The notes under the pieces: generated by a model | Seen by the model: the letters and a program-made list of their open reading frames with translations, nothing else | Databases searched by the model: none | Told to the model about the DNA's origin: nothing | Assembly (NCBI RefSeq): GCF_015240255.1 | Contig: NZ_CP061205.1 | Location: 2,005,501 to 2,069,500 of the forward strand | DNA: 64,000 bases | Reading direction: 5' to 3' | From: Kordiimonas pumila | GTDB taxonomy: Bacteria > Pseudomonadota > Alphaproteobacteria > Sphingomonadales > Kordiimonadaceae | Shown: piece after piece, positions 2,436 to 63,576 of the stretch | Numbering within the stretch: the first letter of the stretch is position 1 | Layout: every line of letters begins with the position of its first letter | Made by a program: the position numbers and the translations under genes

Positions 2436-4517
2436 ATGGCACGCAGAACGCCACTTAATCGTTATCGTAATATCGGCATCATGGCACACATTGATGCGGG
2501 TAAAACTACGACAACAGAACGTATTCTCTATTATACAGGCCGTAGCCACAAAATTGGCGAAGTGCACGATGGCGGCGCGACTATGGACTGGATGGAACAA
2601 GAGCAGGAGCGCGGGATTACGATCACGTCTGCTGCTACAACTTGTTTCTGGAAAGATCACCGCATTAATATCATTGATACGCCGGGTCACGTTGACTTCA
2701 CAATTGAGGTTGAGCGTTCTTTGCGTGTGCTAGATGGTGCTGTAGCTGTATTCGATTCTGTTGCAGGTGTTGAGCCGCAATCAGAGACGGTGTGGCGTCA
2801 GGCTGACCGTTACGGCGTGCCGCGTATGTGTTTCGTTAACAAGATGGACCGTATGGGGGCAAACTTTGATCGCTGTGTCAGCATGATCAGGGAGCGCCTG
2901 GGGGCTAAAGCGCTTCTCATTCAGTTGCCGATTGGTGCGGAATCTGAATATGAGGGTTTGATTGACCTGATCCGTTTCAAGGAAGTTCTTTGGAAGGGTG
3001 AAGATCTTGGCGCGTCTTACGAATATGTAGATATTCGCCCGGAATTGCTTGAAGCTGCTGAAGTTGCTCGTCTTGAAATGATCGAGACTGCTGTTGAAGC
3101 TGACGAAGCTTTGATGGAAAAATATCTTGAAGGTGAAGAGCTTACCGAAGAAGAGCTGAAAAAAGCTATTCGTCGCGGTACAGTTAAGGGTCTTTTCGTT
3201 CCGGTATTGAATGGTACAGCCTTTAAAAACAAAGGTGTTCAGCCGCTTCTTGATGCTGTTGTTGATTTCATGCCTGCCCCAACGGACGTTGAGGCGATTA
3301 ATGGTGTGGACGCGCATGATATCGAAAAAGAAATTGTGCGTCATTCAACTGACGATGAGCCGCTTGCTGCTCTTGCGTTCAAAATTATGAACGACCCGTT
3401 TGTTGGCTCGCTAACATTCTGCCGCGTTTATTCTGGTATTCTTGAAACTGGTACACAGGTCATGAACTCTGTGAAGCAGCGTAAAGAAAAGGTTGGCCGC
3501 ATGCTTGAAATGCACGCTAACAGCCGCGAAGACGTTAAAGAAGCTCGCGCCGGTGATATTATTGCCTTGGCTGGTCTGAAGTCTACAACAACAGGTGACA
3601 CGCTTTGTGCGATCAATAGTCAGGTCATTCTGGAGCGTATGGAATTCCCTGAGCCTGTTATTGAGGTTGCTGTTGAACCTAAAACTAAAGCTGACCAAGA
3701 GAAAATGGGCATTGCCTTGAACCGCCTTGCGGCTGAGGATCCATCTTTCCGCGTGTCTTCTGATGAGGAATCAGGTCAAACTGTGATTGCGGGAATGGGT
3801 GAATTGCACCTTGATATTCTTGTTGATCGTATGCGCCGCGAGTTTAAGGTTGAGTGTAATGTGGGTGCGCCTCAGGTTGCATACCGCGAGAGCTTTGCTA
3901 AAGAAGTTGAAGTTGATTACACGCACAAGAAACAGTCTGGTGGTTCTGGACAGTTTGGTCGCGTGAAAATGGTTGTTACCCCTGGCGAGCGTGGCTCAGG
4001 ATTTCAGTTTAAAGACGAAATCAAGGGCGGTAACATTCCTAAAGAATACATCCCAGGTGTTGAAAAGGGTATCAAGGACATCGCTGAGAGCGGTGCTCTG
4101 ATCGGCTTCCCGATCATCGATTTCTCTGTGCGCCTGATTGATGGTGCTTATCACGATGTGGATTCGAGCGTTCTGGCGTTTGAGATCGCGGGTCGTGGTG
4201 CAACAAGAGAGGCGGCTTCTAAAGCAGGTATTCGACTGCTAGAGCCAATTATGAAGGTCGAAGTGGTAACGCCTGATGATTATATGGGTGATGTTATCGG
4301 CGATCTGAATAAGCGCCGTGGTCAGATTCAGGGTTCTGAAACCCGTGGTCCGAACTCGGTCATCAATGCAATGGTGCCGCTGGCGAACATGTTTGGTTAT
4401 GTGAATGAGCTTCGCTCTTTCTCACAAGGCCGGGCGCAGTTCACTATGCAGTTCGACCATTATGATGCAGTCCCACAAGCAGTTGCTGAAGAACTTAAAG
4501 CAAAGCTTGCAGGGTAA
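2436..4517 (+). CDS. fusA: Elongation factor G
   Basis: EF-G is the translational GTPase that drives mRNA-tRNA translocation and, with ribosome recycling factor, splits post-termination ribosomes. The 693-residue length is typical. The GTPase motifs are visible in order: AHIDAGKT at residues 17-24 (G1), the switch I region around residues 46-64, DTPGH near 82 (G3) and NKMD near 137 (G4). Domains II-V follow, with the domain IV sequence [20 protein letters not shown] conserved. It is the third gene of the str operon, 21 bases after rpsG. Confidence 0.98.
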
Positions 4518-53983: not shown

Positions 53984-54253
53984 TCACTTTTTCTGATGCT
54001 GTCGTATATACCGCTTAACTTCATCTGCATACCACAGCGGGCCGATTCTGCCTGTGTGTGTAGGAATACGTACCGCACGTGGAAAATCTGGTTTGCATAC
54101 TATCCGTTGCTGAACAGTTATCTTTGAGCGGTTCAAGTATGCGGCAATGTCAGAGACGGACCACAACCGCATGGGTATTTTTGTTGTACGGAGTTCTTCA
54201 AGGATGGAGGTGAGTAGTTCCTCCACTCTTGGTTGGGGCCACGGCTTATCCAT
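53984..54253 (-). CDS. Helix-turn-helix protein (AlpA/excisionase-like)
   Basis: An 89-residue protein with a helix-turn-helix of the AlpA/MerR-like small DNA-binding type: LWSVSDIAAYLNRSKITVQQ, followed by a PRAVRIPTHTGRIGPLWYADEVKRYI wing. Such proteins act as excisionases or regulators on islands and prophages. It is the last gene of a four-gene overlapping operon (8-base overlap with the Dam gene) and the island gene nearest the tRNA. Confidence 0.8.
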   Translation of the reverse strand: MDKPWPQPRVEELLTSILEELRTTKIPMRLWSVSDIAAYLNRSKITVQQRIVCKPDFPRAVRIPTHTGRIGPLWYADEVKRYIRQHQKK

Positions 54254-55088
54254 TATCCTTCTCCGTATCTGATGCCGGACAGTTGTCCGTCCGGCAGTTG
54301 GAGATCAGCAGTTCATGGGTGCGTTTGTTCGCTCCTGCTGCTGCGGTGTAGACAACTGATGCTTCCTCAATGGTAAAGGCCCTGAAGATATGCCGCACCT
54401 CAGGTGTGTCATTGATGGACATGATGAAGCTGCCCTTGATCTTCGCAAGCTGGCCTGCCAGCTTCTGAAAGTCATCACGGTGAAACAGGTTCCGTCCATA
54501 ATAGTCCTCAATTCCGTAATACGGCGGATCGAGGTAAAAAAGCGTTGTTGTCCGGTCATACCGTTTGATGAACTGTTCGTAGTGTAGGCATTCGATGGCG
54601 ACACCCGCAAGGCGTTCGTGTATGTCCTCCAAGAGCGGCCCAAGCTTCAGTATATTGAAGCGGACGGGGCCTGTGACATGGGCACCGAAGGCTTGCCCGG
54701 TTCGCAGGCCGCCAAAGGCCATCTTTTGCAAATACAGAAACCGGGCTGCCCGTTCCAGATCAGTCAGCGTGTCGGGGTTGGCCTTCCGCAGGCGTTCAAA
54801 TTCCTTGCGGCTGGTAAGCTGAAACTTTAGCATTTCCATAAAATGTGGATAATGGCGCTGGAGTATCCGGAAGAAGGTGGCAACATCACCGCTATAGTCA
54901 TTAATGACCTCGGCACGAGGAGCCTTGTCCCGGCGCAGGAAGACACCGCCCATGCCCACAAAGGGTACAGCATAGGTGACATGCGAAACGGCATCGATAC
55001 GTTTGATAATTTTTGCGGCCAGCAGTCGTTTGCCACCGATATAGGGTGCCGCAGGGCGTGTAGGTGTAATAGGGGTAAGCTGGTTCAT
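54246..55088 (-). CDS. DNA adenine methyltransferase (Dam/D12 class)
   Basis: A 280-residue N6-adenine methyltransferase. Motif X is seen as PYIGGKRLLA near residue 15, the AdoMet motif I as PFVGMGGVFL (about 42-51), and the catalytic motif IV as DPPY (187-190) within YLDPPYYG. No linked restriction endonuclease is seen, so it is a solitary enzyme. It overlaps the upstream HTH gene (ATGA) and the downstream one. Confidence 0.93.
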   Translation of the reverse strand: MNQLTPITPTRPAAPYIGGKRLLAAKIIKRIDAVSHVTYAVPFVGMGGVFLRRDKAPRAEVINDYSGDVATFFRILQRHYPHFMEMLKFQLTSRKEFERLRKANPDTLTDLERAARFLYLQKMAFGGLRTGQAFGAHVTGPVRFNILKLGPLLEDIHERLAGVAIECLHYEQFIKRYDRTTTLFYLDPPYYGIEDYYGRNLFHRDDFQKLAGQLAKIKGSFIMSINDTPEVRHIFRAFTIEEASVVYTAAAGANKRTHELLISNCRTDNCPASDTEKDNG

Positions 55089-55336
55089 GATAATGTTCCT
55101 TGTGATGTCGTTGATAATCGGGATTGGCTGGCAAGGAAGGCGTCAAGGTCTGTGTGCCTGTAACGCACGGCTCGACCGAGCTTGATGAACTTGGGGCCTG
55201 TTCCGTAAACGCGCCATTTGTTGAGGGTGGAAGACGCAAGCCTCAGGTATTGGGCTGCCTGTGCTGTGGTCAGGAGGCGTTCACCTCCCTCTCCATTGTC
55301 TGCCACGCCCGGTATAATGCTAGGAGTAGTCATCAT
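55085..55336 (-). CDS. Helix-turn-helix protein (AlpA/excisionase-like)
   Basis: An 83-residue DNA-binding protein. After a Gly/Ser-rich N-terminus it has LLTTAQAAQYLRLASSTLNK, a helix-turn-helix of the AlpA type, then LGRAVRYRHTDLDAFL. Position and size are those of phage or island regulators or excisionases. It overlaps the Dcm-type gene by 4 bases and the Dam-type gene by 4 bases, so all three are translated in a coupled way. Confidence 0.82.
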   Translation of the reverse strand: MMTTPSIIPGVADNGEGGERLLTTAQAAQYLRLASSTLNKWRVYGTGPKFIKLGRAVRYRHTDLDAFLASQSRLSTTSQGTLS

Positions 55337-56541
55337 GCCGCTTCTCCTATCTGCCGTGTTTCTAGCGGAAGCATCCTGCTGATGATTGCTGTGATAACCG
55401 GGACGGTGACAGCATTACCGAGCATTTTGTATCGCTGCACATCAGATACTCCCGCTGTCCAGCCATCAGGGAACCCTTGCAGCCGTTCACACTCGGTTGG
55501 GGTAAGGCGGCGTATACGGCCTTCCATGGTAAGCGTATGCTGCCGCATCCCTGTATCGAGTGTTTTGGCGATGGATGAGACACGTCCTCGCCGGGTTGTA
55601 TGGCTGTTGATATAGGCAAAGTTGATAACCTGTCCGACTGTTGCCTCGGCATACCCTTTCTTTGTAGCTTCACGTACCCGGATGACAGGAAGGGGCTTAT
55701 TGTCATTGGCAGGTTTGCCTATGGCGCCTCCAGAGCAGCTAGGCTCGATAGCGCCTGTGCCTGCCGTTCTGGTGAAAGGAAATACTTGGGGTCGGGGTGT
55801 TCCTCTAAGATGTCCGACAATAAACACACGTTCCCTGTTTTGGGGAACGCCAAAATCCTTGCTGTTAAGCACCTGCCATTCACAGTCATACCCCAGTTCA
55901 TCAAGCACGGTGAGGATGGTATGGAACGTACGTCCCGTGTCGTGAGATAAAAGCCCTTTGACGTTTTCAAGGAGAAGCAGACGTGGCTGCTTTTTCCTGA
56001 TAATCCGAGCGATATCAAAAAAGAGTGTACCTCTGCTGTCAGCAAATCCTTTGCGTTTTCCAGCGATTGAAAAAGCCTGACAGGGAAAGCCGCCAACAAG
56101 GAGGTCAAAGTCTGGCAGGTGGCTCGGGTTAACCTTTGTGATGTCTCCGAAGTTGTGGTGGCTGGGGTAGTGTCGTTTATAGACCCCGACTGCGTGTTTA
56201 TCGATTTCGGAGTATCCAACGCATACCACGGCATCTGACTGTAGCTGGTCGTCACTGCCCGTGCCACGGTTGCTGACAGCACCCGTTCCCGTGGCAGATA
56301 GTTCCCCTTCGGTTTGTGTGTCTCTGGCAATATTGCCACTGTCCTGAACTGTGTTGAATGCCTGTTCGATACCATGTTCAAATCCTCCTATTCCTGAAAA
56401 CAGACTGAGATAGCGTATGGGGGCTGCTGGCCTCTGGATAAGTGACGAGCAGCTAATGGGGCGTCTTAGACCCGATACTTCTGTGAATGCCCGACCGGAA
56501 GGAGTGTCCTCCTGTGGTCGTATGGCTGTTGCTGAGTGCAT
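55333..56541 (-). CDS. C5-cytosine DNA methyltransferase (Dcm-like)
   Basis: A 402-residue cytosine methyltransferase. Motif I is FSGIGGFEHGI (about 48-58), the catalytic motif IV GGFPCQAFS has Cys154, motif VI is LLLENVKGL, motif VIII is QNRERVF and the C-terminal motif X is seen as KMLGNAVTVPV. A stretch of about 40 residues (roughly 64-103, rich in Gly/Thr/Ser/Gln) separates motif I from motif II, longer than usual. The start is fixed at 56541 by AGAGGAG. No restriction endonuclease is adjacent. It heads the four-gene operon. Confidence 0.93.
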   Translation of the reverse strand: MHSATAIRPQEDTPSGRAFTEVSGLRRPISCSSLIQRPAAPIRYLSLFSGIGGFEHGIEQAFNTVQDSGNIARDTQTEGELSATGTGAVSNRGTGSDDQLQSDAVVCVGYSEIDKHAVGVYKRHYPSHHNFGDITKVNPSHLPDFDLLVGGFPCQAFSIAGKRKGFADSRGTLFFDIARIIRKKQPRLLLLENVKGLLSHDTGRTFHTILTVLDELGYDCEWQVLNSKDFGVPQNRERVFIVGHLRGTPRPQVFPFTRTAGTGAIEPSCSGGAIGKPANDNKPLPVIRVREATKKGYAEATVGQVINFAYINSHTTRRGRVSSIAKTLDTGMRQHTLTMEGRIRRLTPTECERLQGFPDGWTAGVSDVQRYKMLGNAVTVPVITAIISRMLPLETRQIGEAA

Positions 56542-56739
56542 GGTTTTTCTCCTCTTGTTGAAACCGAGGAGCACAGTGGCAAGCACTGGAATTCTGTAGC
56601 CATAACAATTGGGAAACGTGTTACCACTTTGTTTGGAAACATGTGAGTATGCCCTGTGGCTCTAGTCTTGGACTGAGCTGTACCAGGAGGTTGCACAGGA
56701 GGAAATGTCAGGAAACTTGTTACTCTTTTGGTAGGTTTT

Positions 56740-57390
56740 TCAGAGTAATATAAGCGAACACGTTACCTTGTTTTCAGTAACATCAATGCGTTTGGTGATA
56801 GACTCAACAAGCTTTCGCTTCTGTTCAAAATCTTCCAAACCTGTCCAGACATCCAGCAAGGTTTGTCCCCTTGGTCTGATTACTTCAGGCAGTGGATAGC
56901 TTTCAAGCTGGGCGACAAATATTTCTTCCAGTGCATCCGAGGGGATTTTGGTTGTGCAGTCTGAGCATACGTATTTTTTGGTAGCCGTATTGGTGGGCAC
57001 ACGCATTTTCTGCCCACAACCACAATGGGTGATGCCAGCGAACAGATTGGTGGGCTTGCGAGGTGCTCCACCTTTCCCTTCCTGAGACTGGAGGATCAAC
57101 TGGCATTTTTTCCAGAGATTATCTGAAATGATTTGCTCTGCTTCGCCGTCAATACCAAGTACATATTTGTTTTCAAGAATGCGGGTCACTGAGGGTGAGG
57201 TAAACGAGGAGCCTGACCGGGTTGTCTTCTTTTCAGCATAGAGAATGTCACAGACTATCTTACGGCGCTCATGCTTTACAAAAAGCTCGAAGATATACTG
57301 AATGACAGACACTTCGTCAGGCACAAGGGCAAGGCGGCCTTCTTCCCTTTTATATCCATATGGCGCGGGGCCAGTTCGTATGGTTGCCAT
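56740..57390 (-). pseudogene. Serine recombinase C-terminal part, catalytic domain missing
   Basis: A 216-residue product corresponding to the C-terminal two-thirds of a large serine recombinase. It has a Recombinase domain (APYGYKREEGRLALVPDEVS, SVIQYIFELFVKHER), then a zinc ribbon with four cysteines (THCGCGQKMRVP and YVCSDCTTK) and a coiled-coil-like region (LEDFEQKRKLVESITKRIDV). The N-terminal resolvase domain with the catalytic serine is absent. In frame, the sequence continues upstream for 11 codons (QYRLEALR) before a stop at 57424-57426. It is probably a remnant, but a stand-alone DNA-binding protein cannot be excluded. Confidence 0.8.
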
Positions 57391-57482: not shown

Positions 57483-57513
57483 TTTTGAACAGAATTACGC
57501 ATTCTGTTCAAAA
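57483..57513 (+). repeat. Dif/loxP-like palindromic site, left end of the recombinase module
   Basis: A perfect inverted repeat: 13-bp arms (TTTTGAACAGAAT and ATTCTGTTCAAAA) around the 5-base centre TACGC. A 26-base part, 57485-57510, recurs in reverse orientation at 59971-59996. The architecture (two arms, asymmetric short centre) is that of a tyrosine recombinase core site. It lies just upstream of the recombinase gene. Confidence 0.85.
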
Positions 57514-57523
57514 GGGAGCAGTA

Positions 57524-57544
57524 ATGTCAACTTGTTTTGAGTAA
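57524..57544 (+). promoter_or_regulatory. Six-codon leader ORF overlapping the recombinase start
   Basis: The best ribosome binding site in this region, AAGGGAG, lies 5 bases upstream of an ATG at 57524 that opens a six-codon reading frame ending in TAA at 57542-57544. That stop lies between the possible recombinase starts (TTG 57537 and ATG 57549), which themselves have no clear ribosome binding site. A translationally coupled leader is a reasonable reading, but it is inferred. Confidence 0.4.
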
Positions 57545-57548
57545 ATAT

Positions 57549-58139
57549 ATGAAATCTGATCAAGGTTTTACCCCGTTTGATAGAAACGGAAATAGAACAT
57601 ACCTTACTATTGAAGAAAGGAGGGCATTTTTGTTAGCGGCTCACAGCGCTGATCCTTATGTCATGACATTCTGCATGGTGCTCGCTTACACTGGGGCGAG
57701 AATTTCAGAAGTAAGAAACCTAACACTTGAGAGCATAGATTTCTCACTTCAATGTATAATTATCAAATGCCTGAAAAAAAGGAACAGAGTCGTTTATAGA
57801 GCTGTACCAGTACCAACAGATGTTTTGCTAACACTTGATAGCGTACATGACTTGAGAAACGATTACTCTAAGAAACGAAGAAAACTGTGGACTTGGAGCA
57901 GGACAACAGCTTGGAATAAGGTATCTAAAGTTATGGCTAAGGCTGGCTTGTCGGGTATTTCTGCCACATCTCGTGGTTTACGACATACATTTGCTGTTTC
58001 AGCAGTTCAGTGTGGTATTTCATTAAATATGATCCAAAAGTGGATGGGCCATGCAGATATTGAAACTACTGCATTATATGCGAATGCTGTTGGTGAAGAA
58101 GAGCAAAGAATTGCAAAAAAGATGTGGTCTTATCTCTAA
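57549..58139 (+). CDS. Short tyrosine recombinase, FimB-like size
   Basis: A 196-residue protein consisting only of the tyrosine recombinase catalytic domain, with no N-terminal core-binding domain, like the fim-switch inverters FimB and FimE. Catalytic positions are R51 (AYTGARISEV), a lysine near 76-77, R145 and H146 in SRGLRHTF, H168 in GHADIETT and the nucleophile Y177 in TALYANA. The His that normally begins the HxxR motif is R142 here. It lies just inside the left palindrome. An alternative TTG start at 57537 adds four residues. Confidence 0.88.
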   Translation: MKSDQGFTPFDRNGNRTYLTIEERRAFLLAAHSADPYVMTFCMVLAYTGARISEVRNLTLESIDFSLQCIIIKCLKKRNRVVYRAVPVPTDVLLTLDSVHDLRNDYSKKRRKLWTWSRTTAWNKVSKVMAKAGLSGISATSRGLRHTFAVSAVQCGISLNMIQKWMGHADIETTALYANAVGEEEQRIAKKMWSYL

Positions 58140-58260
58140 GATTAACCAGTATAACAATTACATACTAAAGAATCCAAATACGCTAATATTCAGAAACATT
58201 GCATTAAGTTATCTTGAATGGTAGGATTCGCAATGGGTTAAGTAAATTTAAGGTATATAT

Positions 58261-58746
58261 TTGTCCCGCCAGCCTTATAAATCTCTTCAATTTATGAAGT
58301 CTGCTAGTAAGCAGCTTATTCCTAACTTGATAAGAAGCAAAGTTGTGCTCTGGTCAGATGTTGCTGTACAAATTGTGGAGCAACGTTTTCAAAAAAACCG
58401 TGCACATAGAGAAAAAATCAAACCTATCACTTCGAAGGAGTTTAGCTCCATCGAAGAAGAGATGGAAGCTATGAACCTTCATAAACTAGGAAGGTATCAA
58501 CAAATGGCTTTAACATCGCGTAAAAGGCCTGTTCTTACATATCAGTCTCAACAAGAAGCATTTAATCACCCGGATACAAACTTGATAGATAATTATTGTT
58601 TATATCCAGAAAAGCTCTCTACCACTGAGTTAGAACAAGTTGAAAAGCATCTTAGTGAGTGTGGTCGTTGTAAACGCCAGGTTGATGATACAAAATCAAA
58701 GTCTAGGTATTTACGCGATATTTTGGAGCGAGGTTACCAAGAATAG
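58261..58746 (+). CDS. Uncharacterised protein with an HxxxCxxC zinc-finger-like motif
   Basis: A 161-residue soluble protein of unknown function. Near the C-terminus is H130-x3-C134-x2-C137 (EKHLSECGRCKRQ), preceded by C113, which resembles the zinc-binding motif of ZAS anti-sigma factors and zf-HC2 proteins. No sigma factor gene is present nearby, and there is no membrane segment. The N-terminal half is basic, which could indicate nucleic-acid binding. It starts at TTG (AAGG about 8 bases upstream); no ATG with a site is available. A terminator follows its stop. Confidence 0.7.
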   Translation: MSRQPYKSLQFMKSASKQLIPNLIRSKVVLWSDVAVQIVEQRFQKNRAHREKIKPITSKEFSSIEEEMEAMNLHKLGRYQQMALTSRKRPVLTYQSQQEAFNHPDTNLIDNYCLYPEKLSTTELEQVEKHLSECGRCKRQVDDTKSKSRYLRDILERGYQE

Positions 58747-58749
58747 TTT

Positions 58750-58783
58750 AAAGCCACAGGAATGCTGTGGCTTTATTTTGTTT
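58750..58783 (+). terminator. Intrinsic terminator after the HxxxCxxC gene
   Basis: AAAGCCACAG (58750-58759) pairs perfectly with CTGTGGCTTT (58765-58774), loop GAATG, followed by ATTTTGTTT. It would separate the recombinase-side genes from the dehydrogenase-like gene, whose start lies 20 bases downstream of the stem. Confidence 0.85.
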
Positions 58784-58793
58784 GGATATATTG

Positions 58794-59963
58794 ATGCCAA
58801 AACAAATGAAGACACTTTCTCAGAAACTTTTAAAGCGTAGAATTACTCAACTGCAGCATATTCATATTGGAACAGGCGCTCTAGGGCTAGGTCTCCCTGT
58901 ATGGTTGTGTTCTACTCTCCAGTTTTCTGTTATCTTGGCAAATCGCTCTGAACAATCGCGCTCTTATAACCGCAATTTATTGATAAAAAATCAAAAGCAA
59001 TACAGGGTTGTACCTCAAGGTCAGCACAAGCAGGGCGATATAGTTTCAATTTCCGACTTGATTTTCTATGATCAGGAACAAGATAAGTTCTTTGATGCTA
59101 TTGCTCATCCGAATACGTATATAATCACAACTGCATTAAAAGAGGCAGTTTTGAAGCCCTCGTTTGTTTCATTAATGTGTGCAGCACTGTCTCATAGGCT
59201 TAAACGACACATAAAGAAGCCATTATATATTATATGTTGTGAAAACATTATATGTTCGAGACAATTTAGAGATGCTGTGCAATTGCAAATAGGATTCCCT
59301 CTTCCTTCCTATATACAATTTCTCCCATGTGTTGTTGATCGAGTTTGTGCTACACCTTCGGTTACTTTGAAACCTGACGGATATTCTGAAGTGTTAGTAG
59401 AGGTTGAGAGATATGCGAGATGGTATATTGAGAGACCTAAGCTGACTTCTTCAAAAGAGTTACAAAAAAATCTTACACAAAGTCCTGTTGCTAAGACTGC
59501 TATTCAATTTACAGAAAATATTGAATGGGAAAAGACTCGTAAACTTATACTAATTAACGGTCCGCACCTGCTGATCGCTATTAATGCTAGAGCTGCTAAT
59601 TATTCTCGATTAGATAGTTATTTAAAACATGATGCAGATGCTGCCTATATACTCGAAGATTTATTGCAAGAAGCATCTGATGCACTTCAATGTATTGAAT
59701 TTGAGCGAAATGCTACTCTGACTCTGTCAATCTCAACTTCAGATATTAGTCAGCGTTTTCGTGAGAATCCTGATTTAGTGAATCGCGTGTTAGCTAGATT
59801 TCAAAACCCAAAGCAACTTGAGGCCTTCTTAAAAGACTTGTATAAAAAAGTCTCTCAATGGGCGTTAACTTATCAAAAAGAGTTCAATGAAGCCCCTAAT
59901 CAAACATCACGCACATTATTTCTTCTCACGAGTCTTATCAATTATGACCGATATAACGGCTAA
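58794..59963 (+). CDS. Divergent mannitol-1-phosphate dehydrogenase-like protein
   Basis: A 389-residue protein with the layout of polyol-specific long-chain dehydrogenases such as MtlD. It has an N-terminal Rossmann loop HIGTGALGLGLP (residues 24-35), a CENIICSR segment near 149 matching the CEN motif of MtlD, VDRVCATPSV near 181, and the catalytic K-x4-N-x2-H motif as K250-LILI-N255-GP-H258. The C-terminal end (VLARFQNPKQLEAFLKDLYK) also follows MtlD. Overall similarity looks low. No phosphotransferase genes are nearby, so a mannitol role is doubtful. Substrate and function are unknown. Confidence 0.75.
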   Translation: MPKQMKTLSQKLLKRRITQLQHIHIGTGALGLGLPVWLCSTLQFSVILANRSEQSRSYNRNLLIKNQKQYRVVPQGQHKQGDIVSISDLIFYDQEQDKFFDAIAHPNTYIITTALKEAVLKPSFVSLMCAALSHRLKRHIKKPLYIICCENIICSRQFRDAVQLQIGFPLPSYIQFLPCVVDRVCATPSVTLKPDGYSEVLVEVERYARWYIERPKLTSSKELQKNLTQSPVAKTAIQFTENIEWEKTRKLILINGPHLLIAINARAANYSRLDSYLKHDADAAYILEDLLQEASDALQCIEFERNATLTLSISTSDISQRFRENPDLVNRVLARFQNPKQLEAFLKDLYKKVSQWALTYQKEFNEAPNQTSRTLFLLTSLINYDRYNG

Positions 59964-59970
59964 AGATTCA

Positions 59971-59996
59971 TGAACAGAATGCGTAATTCTGTTCAA
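59971..59996 (-). repeat. Dif/loxP-like palindromic site, right end of the recombinase module
   Basis: TGAACAGAAT, centre GCGTA, ATTCTGTTCA: the exact reverse complement of the left site over 26 bases, so the asymmetric centres face opposite ways. The arms here extend only 10 bp. Recombination between the two would invert the intervening 2.5 kb. Confidence 0.85.
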
Positions 59997-60044
59997 GAGG
60001 AATTGTGTTTCTCCTGAACATTTTTTCAAATCAGGGGGTAACAT

Positions 60045-60812
60045 ATGTTCAAAAGAACACTCATTGCATTAGGTACACTTGGAGTAACAGCGGCGGCACA
60101 AGCGGCTGAAGAAGCACAGGCAGACTGGACCGGCCTCTACATGGGTCTAGGTATAGAAACCACCAAAGCCAAAGTATCAGTAAACCCAGACCCGTCAGGC
60201 ATCATTCTGTTTGATAATCTTGAAGACCTCAGTGGCAACAAAGCAGACTGGGCAGGTGCGATACAGTTTGGCTTCCGCAAGGAGTTTGGCAAGCTTGTCT
60301 TGGGAGCGGAACTGGAAGGCATCTTTGGTGGTGGCAGGACTATAGCGGATAGTACCGATGGTCTGCTGTTTGAAGATGCTCCTGACTTTCTCACCCTATC
60401 CTCAGAAGCAACCGTCAGTGTGAAGCCCAAGGGCCGTATGGTTGGCACAGTGGAAGTCCCCATTGGCAAACACTTCCTAATTGGTGGTGAGGCAGGCTTT
60501 ACGCTCGCTACAACTTCAGTCTCCGGTGACATCTACGGTCCATACAATTTCTTTGACCCCACCATCAGGGAACACTGGGCTTCATACAGTGATACCTCAA
60601 ACCAGATAGGTGGGACATATGGCATCAGGGCAACTGCCAAGGTGGGAAAGCATATGCTTATCACTGCCAGATACACCTTTGCCAAACTGGGAACAGCCAC
60701 GGCACCTGTAACACTGGACGAGTTAGAGATTATCGACATGCCAGTAGTGCAGGCCGCAGAGGCCGTCACAAAGCTTGAGAGTTTCCGCCTTGGGGTGGGC
60801 TACCAGTTCTAA
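60045..60812 (+). CDS. Outer-membrane beta-barrel protein (Omp25/opacity-like)
   Basis: A 255-residue protein with a signal peptide (MFKRTLIALGTLGVTAAAQA) and alternating beta strands typical of an eight-stranded OmpA/Omp25-like barrel (WTGLYMGLGIETTKA near the start, repeated YG/AT strands, ending FRLGVGYQF with a terminal aromatic). GGGGG about 8 bases upstream fits the ATG. It starts 48 bases after the right palindrome, so inversion of the recombinase module could affect its expression. Confidence 0.85.
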   Translation: MFKRTLIALGTLGVTAAAQAAEEAQADWTGLYMGLGIETTKAKVSVNPDPSGIILFDNLEDLSGNKADWAGAIQFGFRKEFGKLVLGAELEGIFGGGRTIADSTDGLLFEDAPDFLTLSSEATVSVKPKGRMVGTVEVPIGKHFLIGGEAGFTLATTSVSGDIYGPYNFFDPTIREHWASYSDTSNQIGGTYGIRATAKVGKHMLITARYTFAKLGTATAPVTLDELEIIDMPVVQAAEAVTKLESFRLGVGYQF

Positions 60813-60839
60813 AACACATCTTCCATAAGGATTTCAGAC

Positions 60840-61082
60840 ATGAAGAAAACACTCAGTATGCTTACACTTGCTTTTACCGTTACTGGCTGCGTGAACACGT
60901 CTAGCAGTCTGGAGCGGGAAACTGCCCGTTTTGTTGGTGATGTGTCACCGGAAGCCATAACCGTCCTCAATATCGACAGGGGTATGTTGTCTGTCAAATG
61001 GGATGCCCGTGTCAAAGACGGTCGGGTGTACCGCTGTGACGCAGATGATATGATGAAACGGGTGCATTGTGTGCAACAGTAA
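60840..61082 (+). CDS. Small lipoprotein
   Basis: An 80-residue product with a lipoprotein signal, MKKTLSMLTLAFTVTGC (lipobox VTGC, C17). The mature part is small and charged, with no recognised domain. It lies 27 bases after the beta-barrel gene and overlaps the next lipoprotein gene by 14 bases, so the three probably form one envelope-gene operon. Confidence 0.75.
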   Translation: MKKTLSMLTLAFTVTGCVNTSSSLERETARFVGDVSPEAITVLNIDRGMLSVKWDARVKDGRVYRCDADDMMKRVHCVQQ

Positions 61083-61713
61083 GTGGATACAGCACAGAAC
61101 ACGGTCCTTCCTGTTTTGTCTGTACGCTTTATCCTTGTCGGGATGTGCGGCTGTACCACTGCTCATGCTGGTTGGCGTGGGGGCAGCCACTTTTGCAGTA
61201 CATAAAGTAGTGCAAACACAGTCCGGCGGAGAGATTAAGGTTGCCTTTCCTGCGGTTGATGGACGAGAAGCCCCACCACAGTCACTACCGTCCGGCAGCA
61301 CGGTTGCCGTTTGGTCGAATGGAGAACGAGAAGAGCGTTTTATCGCAGCCCTCCGTGCCTCTGGTACGTTTACCATTCACTCATTGCCAAAGACAGAAGC
61401 CAACACTGAGGCAGACATGGCAGATGCTTTCATGGCTGCCTGCCAGACCAGCAAGGCAGACCTTATCTTTGCGGCAACAGATGAAGACGTATCAAAGAAG
61501 AAAAATCTTCTATCCATCGACAGGGCCGCAACAACCTACACCCTGCATCTGCTAGTATTTTCCTGTACTGAAAACACTGTGACATGGAAAGACCGCATGG
61601 CTCTCATTGTAGAGCAAGGCAAGATACAGCCAACAGAGAGCGAACTACAGCAGGTGGCAGGCGATATGTGGGCAGAACGGATACTGGTTGCTAAAAACAT
61701 GCAGCCAGACTGA
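61069..61713 (+). CDS. Lipoprotein of unknown function
   Basis: A 214-residue product with a lipoprotein-like signal (LYALSLSGCAAV, lipobox LSGC). The rest is alpha/beta in appearance (VAVWSNGEREERFIAALRAS, then TFTIHSLPKTEAN; TWKDRMALIVEQG). No family was recognised; it could belong to a surface or secretion-related cassette. It starts at GTG 61069, inside the upstream lipoprotein gene; a later GTG at 61084 is an alternative start. Confidence 0.7.
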   Translation: MCNSKWIQHRTRSFLFCLYALSLSGCAAVPLLMLVGVGAATFAVHKVVQTQSGGEIKVAFPAVDGREAPPQSLPSGSTVAVWSNGEREERFIAALRASGTFTIHSLPKTEANTEADMADAFMAACQTSKADLIFAATDEDVSKKKNLLSIDRAATTYTLHLLVFSCTENTVTWKDRMALIVEQGKIQPTESELQQVAGDMWAERILVAKNMQPD

Positions 61714-62081
61714 GGATAGTATTGCTCTTGGACTGTCTAAAATGCATTTCCTCTGCGTTAGTATTCCAAGGGAGAACTCGGTAAGGGGTGGAAACATCCC
61801 TTGCCGCTTTTTATATATGGAACAGGATACATCAGTTTCCTCAGTGTATAACCTCCCAAGGACTTGTGCTGAGGACGAGGGGCTGCTGGATGTGCCGTTC
61901 AGTCCCTCACCATATCAAATAGATATGATTTGACTGTAGCCCTATGTATGTGATGGTTAAGTATTCGCGGCGTATATACGACCCCCAAAGTATGTATGCG
62001 CCGCCGTGAGAGGGTTGTATTATCAATCCTCTCACACACCTTCTTAGATTTGGCAGGCGGGGATGTTTGCCAAGGTGCAGA
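61714..62081. other. Island intergenic region without a clear gene
   Basis: About 370 bases. An open frame of 81 codons at 61688-61933 has no ribosome binding site and an atypical composition, so I do not call it. An 8-bp inverted repeat GTGAGAGG/CCTCTCAC at 62006-62035 is the only distinct structure; its role is unknown. Confidence 0.4.
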
Positions 62082-62107
62082 AAGCCCCAGTCGCAAGACT
62101 GGGGCTT
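62082..62107 (-). terminator. Terminator of the ArdC gene
   Basis: AAGCCCCAGTC and GACTGGGGCTT form a perfect 11-bp stem with loop GCAA. On the minus strand a short T-run follows (GGGGCTTT). It lies 15 bases past the ArdC stop. Confidence 0.85.
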
Positions 62108-62121
62108 ATGTGTTTCTGTCC

Positions 62122-62982
62122 TCATGTTGGAACGCCTGCTCCCGTTAGCAGGAAGGTCATGGCTTCTTGTGCTTTACCGGCAGCGGTGAAGACAGCCCGA
62201 TTGTCGGAGCGCAGCAGGGCAAGCCAGTGTTCTATGTATGATGCATGGCGCAGTTGTCCCTCTATACCAAAGAAGGCACACAGGTAGGCTGACGTCAGCT
62301 CGGCTATCAACTCTTCAGCCGCATAGGACTGCGTCCCAAACCGACCCGTGAGATCACGCCCTAGTCGCTTGGTATGCCCTGTTGCATGCCCATACTCATG
62401 AAAGAGCGTTGCATAGTAATGGTCTGGGCTTTCAAACTGTGATGGCAAGGGCATGACAACGGCGTCATGACGTGGGTTATAGGCAGCACTGTCACTGCCG
62501 TGGGCTACGTCAATGTCTGTTGCAGCAATAAAGCCTTCTATATCCTGCATACACTCATGATCTGGCAGCGGTTCATCCGGTGTAGTGTAGGCGTCCGGTA
62601 GTTTCTCTAACTGGCAGAGGTTGAAGACAGCATAGGAACGGATAACGGGAATGACTTTCTCAGCGTCCTCATCATCCGTAACCTTGATCTCTTTGACATA
62701 GACAATGCGGACGGCTTTTTCACCCTTGCGGACATAGGCTCCAAGGGCATGAGCCTGTTTGAAGGTGAGCCAGCCGGAGCGGATGTAGTTTCGCTCTGAC
62801 GCCCGAACCCATAAAAGCAGGACATTGATGCCGCTATAGGGTCGTCCGGTCACTGCATTATGGGGAAAGACATGTTTGTCTGCGTTTCCACCTTGCCACG
62901 GTTTTACCCACGGCGGTGTGCCTGCTTCCAGTTCCTCAATGATGCGGTTGGTAACAGACGTGTATATCTCCTGTGATTTCAT
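62122..62982 (-). CDS. ArdC-like antirestriction protein
   Basis: A 286-residue protein with the ArdC architecture: an N-terminal ssDNA-binding domain (IYTSVTNRIIEELEAGTPPW, GRPYSGINVLLLW) and a C-terminal zinc metallopeptidase domain with HEYGH at residues 195-199 followed by GHTKR and a downstream Glu (YAAEELIAE). ArdC proteins protect incoming plasmids and ICEs from restriction. Its presence, with unaccompanied DNA methylases in the same island, fits a conjugative or transferred element. AGAGAGG precedes the ATG. Confidence 0.92.
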   Translation of the reverse strand: MKSQEIYTSVTNRIIEELEAGTPPWVKPWQGGNADKHVFPHNAVTGRPYSGINVLLLWVRASERNYIRSGWLTFKQAHALGAYVRKGEKAVRIVYVKEIKVTDDEDAEKVIPVIRSYAVFNLCQLEKLPDAYTTPDEPLPDHECMQDIEGFIAATDIDVAHGSDSAAYNPRHDAVVMPLPSQFESPDHYYATLFHEYGHATGHTKRLGRDLTGRFGTQSYAAEELIAELTSAYLCAFFGIEGQLRHASYIEHWLALLRSDNRAVFTAAGKAQEAMTFLLTGAGVPT

Positions 62983-63054
62983 GACAGAAACCTCTCTTGT
63001 TGTTGAAAGAACAGATGGAAGCCAAGAGCGATGCTCCGGGCTTCCCGCTGTGTT

Positions 63055-63576
63055 TCAGCGGTGAGAGCTTCGTTGTGCCGAAGTGAGGTAATGTGTCAGC
63101 CCGAGGGAAGCCGCACTAAAGAAAGACATAGCCGCAGGTTCCGGGTCCCATAGCTTTCGTTTTGGTGGCACTAGAGATGACAGGATTGGTAAGGCTTCTG
63201 CGGTCTTTCCGGCAATTTCATGCTTAGTGGTTGCTCCAAACGGGTTAAAGGCTTCCCTGATCTGATCCCGGCTATAGAGATACACACGTATATTCTGTGT
63301 GGCGGCAATGCTGGCCAGAGACCTGATTAGGTCCGCAACACGGGGGCGGGCTTCAACCACATCTGACGGGATTTCTTCGAGTACAAGGGAGGCAGGTTTG
63401 TAATAGTTTATGAGGGTAATGAATTTGCGGGTACAGACCTTGTTTTTATCTTCCGTTGCCCACTTTATACCCCAGTCCAGCAGTGTGTCGGCGCTTGAAT
63501 GCACGGAATAGCCAAAGCCGATGCGGGTTGGAAATACGGTGAGTAACAGGTCTGGCCCTTTGTGTGATGTGGTCAT
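63055..63576 (-). CDS. RuvC/RNase H-fold-like protein with altered active site
   Basis: A 173-residue protein whose strand pattern resembles RuvC-type Holliday-junction resolvases: an opening LLLTVFPTRIGFGYSV strand pair, VLEEIP with E67/E68 matching the second acidic residue, and a C-terminal AASLGLTHYL helix. The first catalytic Asp, normally in an IDPG-like strand, is replaced (VFPT), and the usual DAxD end motif is not seen. It may be an inactive paralogue or a divergent nuclease. An inverted repeat GGAAGCC/GGCTTCC at 63017-63045, just past the stop, could help end transcription. Confidence 0.65.
   Translation of the reverse strand: MTTSHKGPDLLLTVFPTRIGFGYSVHSSADTLLDWGIKWATEDKNKVCTRKFITLINYYKPASLVLEEIPSDVVEARPRVADLIRSLASIAATQNIRVYLYSRDQIREAFNPFGATTKHEIAGKTAEALPILSSLVPPKRKLWDPEPAAMSFFSAASLGLTHYLTSAQRSSHR

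Follow-up and report, generated by a model that had tools for sequence, protein, structure and literature searches.

Hin/hix, the flagellar inversion segment of Salmonella, has short inverted sites with a surface-protein gene beside one of them. Hin has been cited as a case in which the recombinase lies within the inverting segment (PMC5903667), and a genome-wide screen with four alphaproteobacterial samples reported no inversion in any of them (PMC5903667). In the literature searched, we found no description of an inversion switch that is run by a tyrosine recombinase and holds both this recombinase and additional cargo genes inside the inverting DNA. Here, we analyzed a 64,000-nt stretch of the Kordiimonas pumila genome (the window) and propose that positions 57485 to 59996 are probably a Hin-like inversion switch that is operated by a tyrosine recombinase and whose cargo is exchangeable. 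The locus has the following features.

56740..57390, minus strand: left neighbor, C-terminal part of a large serine recombinase, starting 93 bp outside S1
57484..57512, plus strand: S1, the recombinase-proximal site, TTTGAACAGAAT-TACGC-ATTCTGTTCAAA, with its 26-mer core at 57485 to 57510
57501..57530, minus strand: candidate outward-facing promoter straddling S1, TTGACA-18-CAGAAT
57537..58139, plus strand: 200-aa tyrosine recombinase consisting of the catalytic domain only (listed with a TTG start; ATG at 57549 possible)
58261..58746, plus strand: cargo 1, 161-aa anti-sigma-like protein with a C-terminal zf-HC2-like finger (HxxxCxxC)
58749..58775, both strands: terminator-like hairpin with an 11-bp stem, between cargo 1 and cargo 2
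58767..59963, plus strand: cargo 2, MtlD-like oxidoreductase, 398 aa (ATG at 58797 a likelier start than GTG at 58767)
59969..59997, minus strand: S2, the distal site, an inverted copy with the same center and its 26-mer core at 59971 to 59996
60045..60812, plus strand: outer-membrane beta-barrel protein (OMP), the proposed controlled gene, with its start codon 47 bp past S2

The preliminary description, made from the window alone, had reported a 26-base sequence in opposite orientation at the two ends of the segment, and this holds: the S1 core reads TTGAACAGAATTACGCATTCTGTTCA, its exact reverse complement occupies 59971 to 59996, and the two are 100% complementary in inverted orientation. 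Each 26-mer is itself palindromic around an asymmetric 5-nt center (TACGC or GCGTA), with perfect arms of 13 bp at the left site and 10 bp at the right site, as described there. The chance expectation for palindrome matches in the window is 0.00, and the four found are both sites on both strands. In the 4,041,658-bp genome, no copy of the 26-mer at 0 to 1 mismatch exists beyond S1 and S2, and one unrelated match with 3 mismatches lies at 1,675,632. A reading of the palindromes as operators spread across the genome, raised in the preliminary description as the finding that would speak against a module, is therefore ruled out by the lack of other full copies.

The recombinase, which had been picked out as FimB-sized and just inside the left site, matches PF00589 over residues 26 to 184 (E value, 6.5e-20). 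Its nearest solved relatives are XerA, XerD, and IntI4, and by both NCBIfam and PDB it is most similar to Xer proteins, while a score of 43.9 bits with the NCBIfam FimB/FimE invertase model NF007370 (cutoff, 221) places it outside that family. R55, R149, H172, and Y181 are invariant in a 16-member recombinase alignment, and nearly every member has K or R at the box II histidine position (K/R-G-L-R-H); the loss of the usual histidine (HxxR), replaced mainly by these two residues, seems to be a trait of the family.

The zf-HC2-like finger of cargo 1 scores 19.5 bits, below the Pfam cutoff of 22.2, and the gene is present as a single copy in the genome. Cargo 2 matches Mannitol_dh (E value, 4.4e-16) and retains the GTGALGLG and KLILINGPH motifs. 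Apart from distant matches of 24 to 30%, it occurs in the window's genome alone among the genomes compared (30 of the family and 385 of the class), and the MtlD-like protein was for this reason rejected as a hallmark gene. The cargo is probably carried rather than required. None of the three open reading frames of the segment matches a DDE transposase family, in line with the earlier observation. No match to defense-system models was found.

To place the locus among its relatives, 114 related recombinase loci were oriented, and each was examined for a palindrome near the recombinase start that recurs at another place in the locus. Of the 114, 31 have a second, inverted site whose center is fully identical, and anchors placed at random in these loci gave 9 of 399; this agrees with the initial view of the sites as tyrosine-recombinase core sites. 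The site pairs of loci L113, L116, and L187 were left out as GC-rich chance matches without an exact center. A direct second copy was found in 1 of the 114 loci; a direct-repeat (excision) layout was rejected, as this sole example is likewise a GC-rich chance match. The inverted pairs fall into three layouts. In layout A, the recombinase lies within the segment, near S1 and reading inward, and the segment spans 0.7 to 9.75 kb. Layout B has a lipoprotein operon inside and the recombinase just outside, adjoining the cassette, and its sites are inverted ATGCAACA. In layout C, a 150- to 200-bp (~150-bp) inverted pair sits between the recombinase and its other neighbor, which in several loci is a divergently oriented gene for a secreted protein or lipoprotein; with its segment beside the recombinase, this layout resembles fimS and ipuS (PMC6083910). 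The loci of layouts A and B are as follows.

Layout A, the window's own genome and Kordiimonas: the window; L042 (at 0.59 Mb); L046 of Kordiimonas marina
Layout A, other loci of the clade: L047; L076; L103; L109; L115; L181 of Parvibaculum
Layout A, Magnetococcales: L074; L080; L081; L083; L101; L230
Layout A, outside the clade: L134; L139
Layout B: L043 (the window's own genome); L049; L050; L053; L054

The layout A recombinases, including that of the window, cluster together (11 of 12 rows; support, 88/87), and genus-level relatives include K. marina. In L049 and L054, the layout B cassettes come directly after a relaxase-like operon. Several single loci also merit description. In L230 (Magnetococcales; G465, C63), the inverted repeat extends 93 bp past both sites at 100% identity. 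A solo site with the same GTACC center was seen at positions 3005 to 3029 of a 3.4-kb contig without a recombinase match (L182; G416, C287). The window's own genome holds a broken remnant of a related recombinase (L044; C1:2906368-2906541), with 55% identity over 58 residues and an internal stop. The 9.75-kb inverted-site module of a Parvibaculum metagenome-assembled genome (L181, 4871 to 14619) carries biosynthetic cargo, namely, two radical SAM proteins, a PP-loop protein, and a seryl-tRNA-synthetase-like gene.

Related recombinases are also carried by small Acetobacteraceae plasmids, several with one upstream palindrome, and the window's enzyme might accordingly be a plasmid-type dimer-resolution recombinase stuck with a duplicated site and serving no present function. 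However, the Acetobacteraceae plasmid recombinases fall in a separate clade (support, 100/99), no inverted site pair was found at their loci, inverted sites cannot resolve dimers, and the inverted layout and an outward TTGAC are kept across distant genomes, so we consider this origin very improbable. A viral origin was rejected as well: there is no phage record, IMG/VR holds weak relatives only, and no exact site occurs in viral contigs.

If the module were an IS-like mobile element, with one tyrosine recombinase and inverted palindromes at its ends, it would be a minimal relative of RIT, Tn554, or SE. Such an element could account for the 0.7-kb recombinase-only units of Magnetococcales, which occur in varied contexts (near flagellar genes, FeoB, an adhesin gene, and a methyltransferase gene), and for the degeneracy of some outer arms, such as ATAGGCAAGAAT in L081; RIT ends, too, have inverted palindromes (PMC3414803). 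Yet each relative's genome searched has one or two copies, no empty sites were found, and the outer arms differ about as much as the inner ones (2.15 versus 2.00 mismatches). Moreover, the left and right centers are always identical and inverted, whereas SE elements leave different 6-bp spacers (PMC10214605). The recombinase-only IS idea was downgraded because of the identical centers and the single-copy results, and we now regard it as unlikely; the recombinase-borne mobile element that the preliminary description had offered beside a phase-variation switch is not upheld, with centers that are identical and not target derived. Insertion into the neighboring serine recombinase was also rejected, since its frame stops short of S1 and no other half was found beyond S2. 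The surroundings (window positions 54246 to 56586 and 62122 to 63576) are themselves mobile-element-like, with two DNA methyltransferase-like genes, an ArdC antirestriction protein, and a protein of ~170 aa. The last, RuvC-like by eye and without a Pfam match, recurs beside several related modules.

We return to the inversion switch. The 200-aa recombinase just inside S1 would recombine S1 with S2, and the 2.5-kb segment would invert together with its recombinase and the two cargo genes. Inversion would be the productive outcome, since the arms would accept the enzyme from both sides and the 5-nt centers match only in inverted alignment. A trace of such an event comes from Magnetococcales. The 0.9 kb left of S1 in L074, together with S1, aligns at 78% with the reverse-complemented right flank and S2 of L080, and the recombinase segments of the two loci, read in the same internal direction, share 84% identity. 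The segment is thus turned round relative to the flank, which joins opposite sites in the two loci. The other junction has a variant outer arm, TCTGGACAG, which belongs to S2 in L074 and to S1 in L080; past it, L080 has IS21-like genes, and the flank comparison ends there. A third Magnetococcales genome (G443, L229), with an incomplete recombinase match, retains the L074 junction. The gene in the flank at the junction (DUF3782) is multicopy in the Magnetococcales group, but the flank match also takes in the intergenic DNA as far as the site and surpasses the matches to paralogs. Judged from assembled DNA, these junctions are the footprint that inversion would be expected to leave, in one pair of loci (L074/L080), both from metagenome assemblies. 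Together with the 31 loci with inverted pairs, this orientation relative to a common flank bears out the earlier argument that inverted sites imply inversion.

Among close relatives, L074/L080 is the only pair found inverted at the sites; L104/L114 was rejected as a second, as its minus-strand match is far upstream, off the sites. The direction of the recombinase relative to the ArdC/RuvC-like side is constant in all five loci compared (the window, L042, L046, L047, and L181), and layout B shows one orientation in 5 of 5. This constancy makes free 50:50 flipping unlikely, and a fixed orientation relative to functional neighbors in Kordiimonas and Parvibaculum indicates that inversion probably occurs rarely or with a bias. 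In the window's own genome, where one orientation is seen, we infer that inversion occurs.

The likely purpose is phase variation of the genes abutting the sites. The promoter-like element inside S1 now points left, and inversion would place it directly before the OMP gene, for whose own promoter the gap to S2 is too short. TTGACA-18-CAGAAT at S1 scores 10 of 12, the best in the region, with promoter-like matches overall not above those in shuffles. An outward TTGAC just inside S1 is present in 12 of 15 layout A clade loci and at S2 in 1 of 15, with a background of 2%; the Fisher P value of 1e-4 is a guide only, as the loci are related. In the window, L042, L046, L076, and L181, TTGAC lies 17 to 18 nt from a CAGAAT or CAGTAT in the site arm, and the two motifs across the site make a plausible sigma-70 promoter. 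In part of the clade, TTGAC lies 7 nt from the site arm, not 17 to 18, and may not be a promoter there. For the S1 element, we infer that the present orientation is OFF; alternatively, read-through from the recombinase operon could make it ON. The recombinase's own promoter is probably outside S1 and would be lost upon inversion.

Genes placed to be controlled from S2 recur in these relatives. An open reading frame with a ribosome-binding-like sequence begins 15 to 67 bp past S2 in 8 of the 15 layout A clade loci (the window, L042, L047, L076, L083, L103, L109, and L181), and L115 is a ninth locus with a gene start right after S2, judged by eye. The N termini past S2 look secreted, lipoprotein-like, or membrane bound in seven of the eight, including the OMP of the window, and L083 has an adhesin-like protein. 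The OMP gene, two small lipoprotein genes, and ardC form a 3.2-kb block (60023 to 63172), a 94% copy of which lies at 0.59 Mb (C1:595969-599125; L042). This copy adjoins a second, recombinase-only module of the window's genome (L042 sites 5863-5886/6555-6578), where a secreted TPR gene is additionally found ahead of the OMP copy.

The contents of the segments bring in cassette exchange, in which the recombinase would swap all DNA between inverted identical sites and the module would be a cargo dock, not a switch. Engineered recombinase-mediated cassette exchange swaps DNA between sites likewise. In layout B, the backbone (72 to 80% nucleotide identity) and the recombinase are kept on both sides, the cassettes of 0.6 to 1.8 kb are largely unrelated, and the breaks in similarity fall at the sites, although rapidly diverging surface proteins could mimic exchange. 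Layout A cargo ranges from none up to the 9.75 kb of radical-SAM, PP-loop, and SerS-like genes, but no pair of genomes was found that shares its flanks and has plainly exchanged its cargo. The window segment has a GC content of 37% between flanks of 50 to 51%, and the best-fitting breaks in composition fall no more than about 100 bp from S1 and S2. Variable cargo and a low-GC segment fit acquisition or exchange of the whole segment, an exchange that inverted identical sites allow. Orientation is fixed in most comparisons, but L074/L080 shows inversion with the same content. A dock in place of a switch is possible, although we would give it much less weight than the inversion switch. We also put forward, tentatively, that inversion and cargo trading go together in one module family, a natural form of recombinase-mediated cassette exchange coupled to surface-protein phase variation. 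Such a family would be self-carrying, with a single recombinase and inverted loxP-like sites, in Alphaproteobacteria, Magnetococcales, and others.

Palindromic sites of 26 bp and one very small recombinase would be attractive as Cre-like tools, and the 0.7-kb version of Magnetococcales, which has the recombinase only, would make an inverting unit that is very small and self-contained. Some relatives are in culture (K. marina).

Compared with known systems, the locus shares with Cre/loxP and XerCD/dif palindromic arms around a short asymmetric center, but it has no core-binding domain, two inverted sites instead of one, and a 5-nt center. Dimer resolution of the Cre/loxP type uses one site, or sites in direct repeat, carried by a plasmid, whereas S1 and S2 are an inverted pair in a single 4.04-Mb contig. 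RIT, Tn554, GInt, and SE likewise have tyrosine recombinases between terminal inverted repeats, with palindromic ends in RIT. However, they carry several recombination proteins (three adjacent tyrosine recombinases in RIT, two or more proteins in SE and Tn554), in contrast to the one 200-aa enzyme here, and the left and right 6-bp spacers of SE and Tn554 differ, whereas the centers in the window are identical and inverted. The FimB/FimE switches (fimS, hyxS, and ipuS) also combine a catalytic-domain-only tyrosine recombinase of ~200 aa with a surface gene, but their recombinase lies outside a short promoter segment, an arrangement found only in the layout C relatives, and their repeats are 7 to 16 bp, unlike the 26-bp palindromes of the window. 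The preliminary description had matched the combination of genes to no known system; the layout does, however, resemble Hin/hix in having the recombinase gene inside the segment, short inverted sites, and an adjoining surface-protein gene. Hin/hix uses a serine recombinase and enhancer-dependent inversion, whereas the window has a PF00589 tyrosine recombinase, cargo genes that Hin/hix lacks, and a candidate promoter at S1. Thus, it is a Hin-like function, and not membership in Hin, that is favored.
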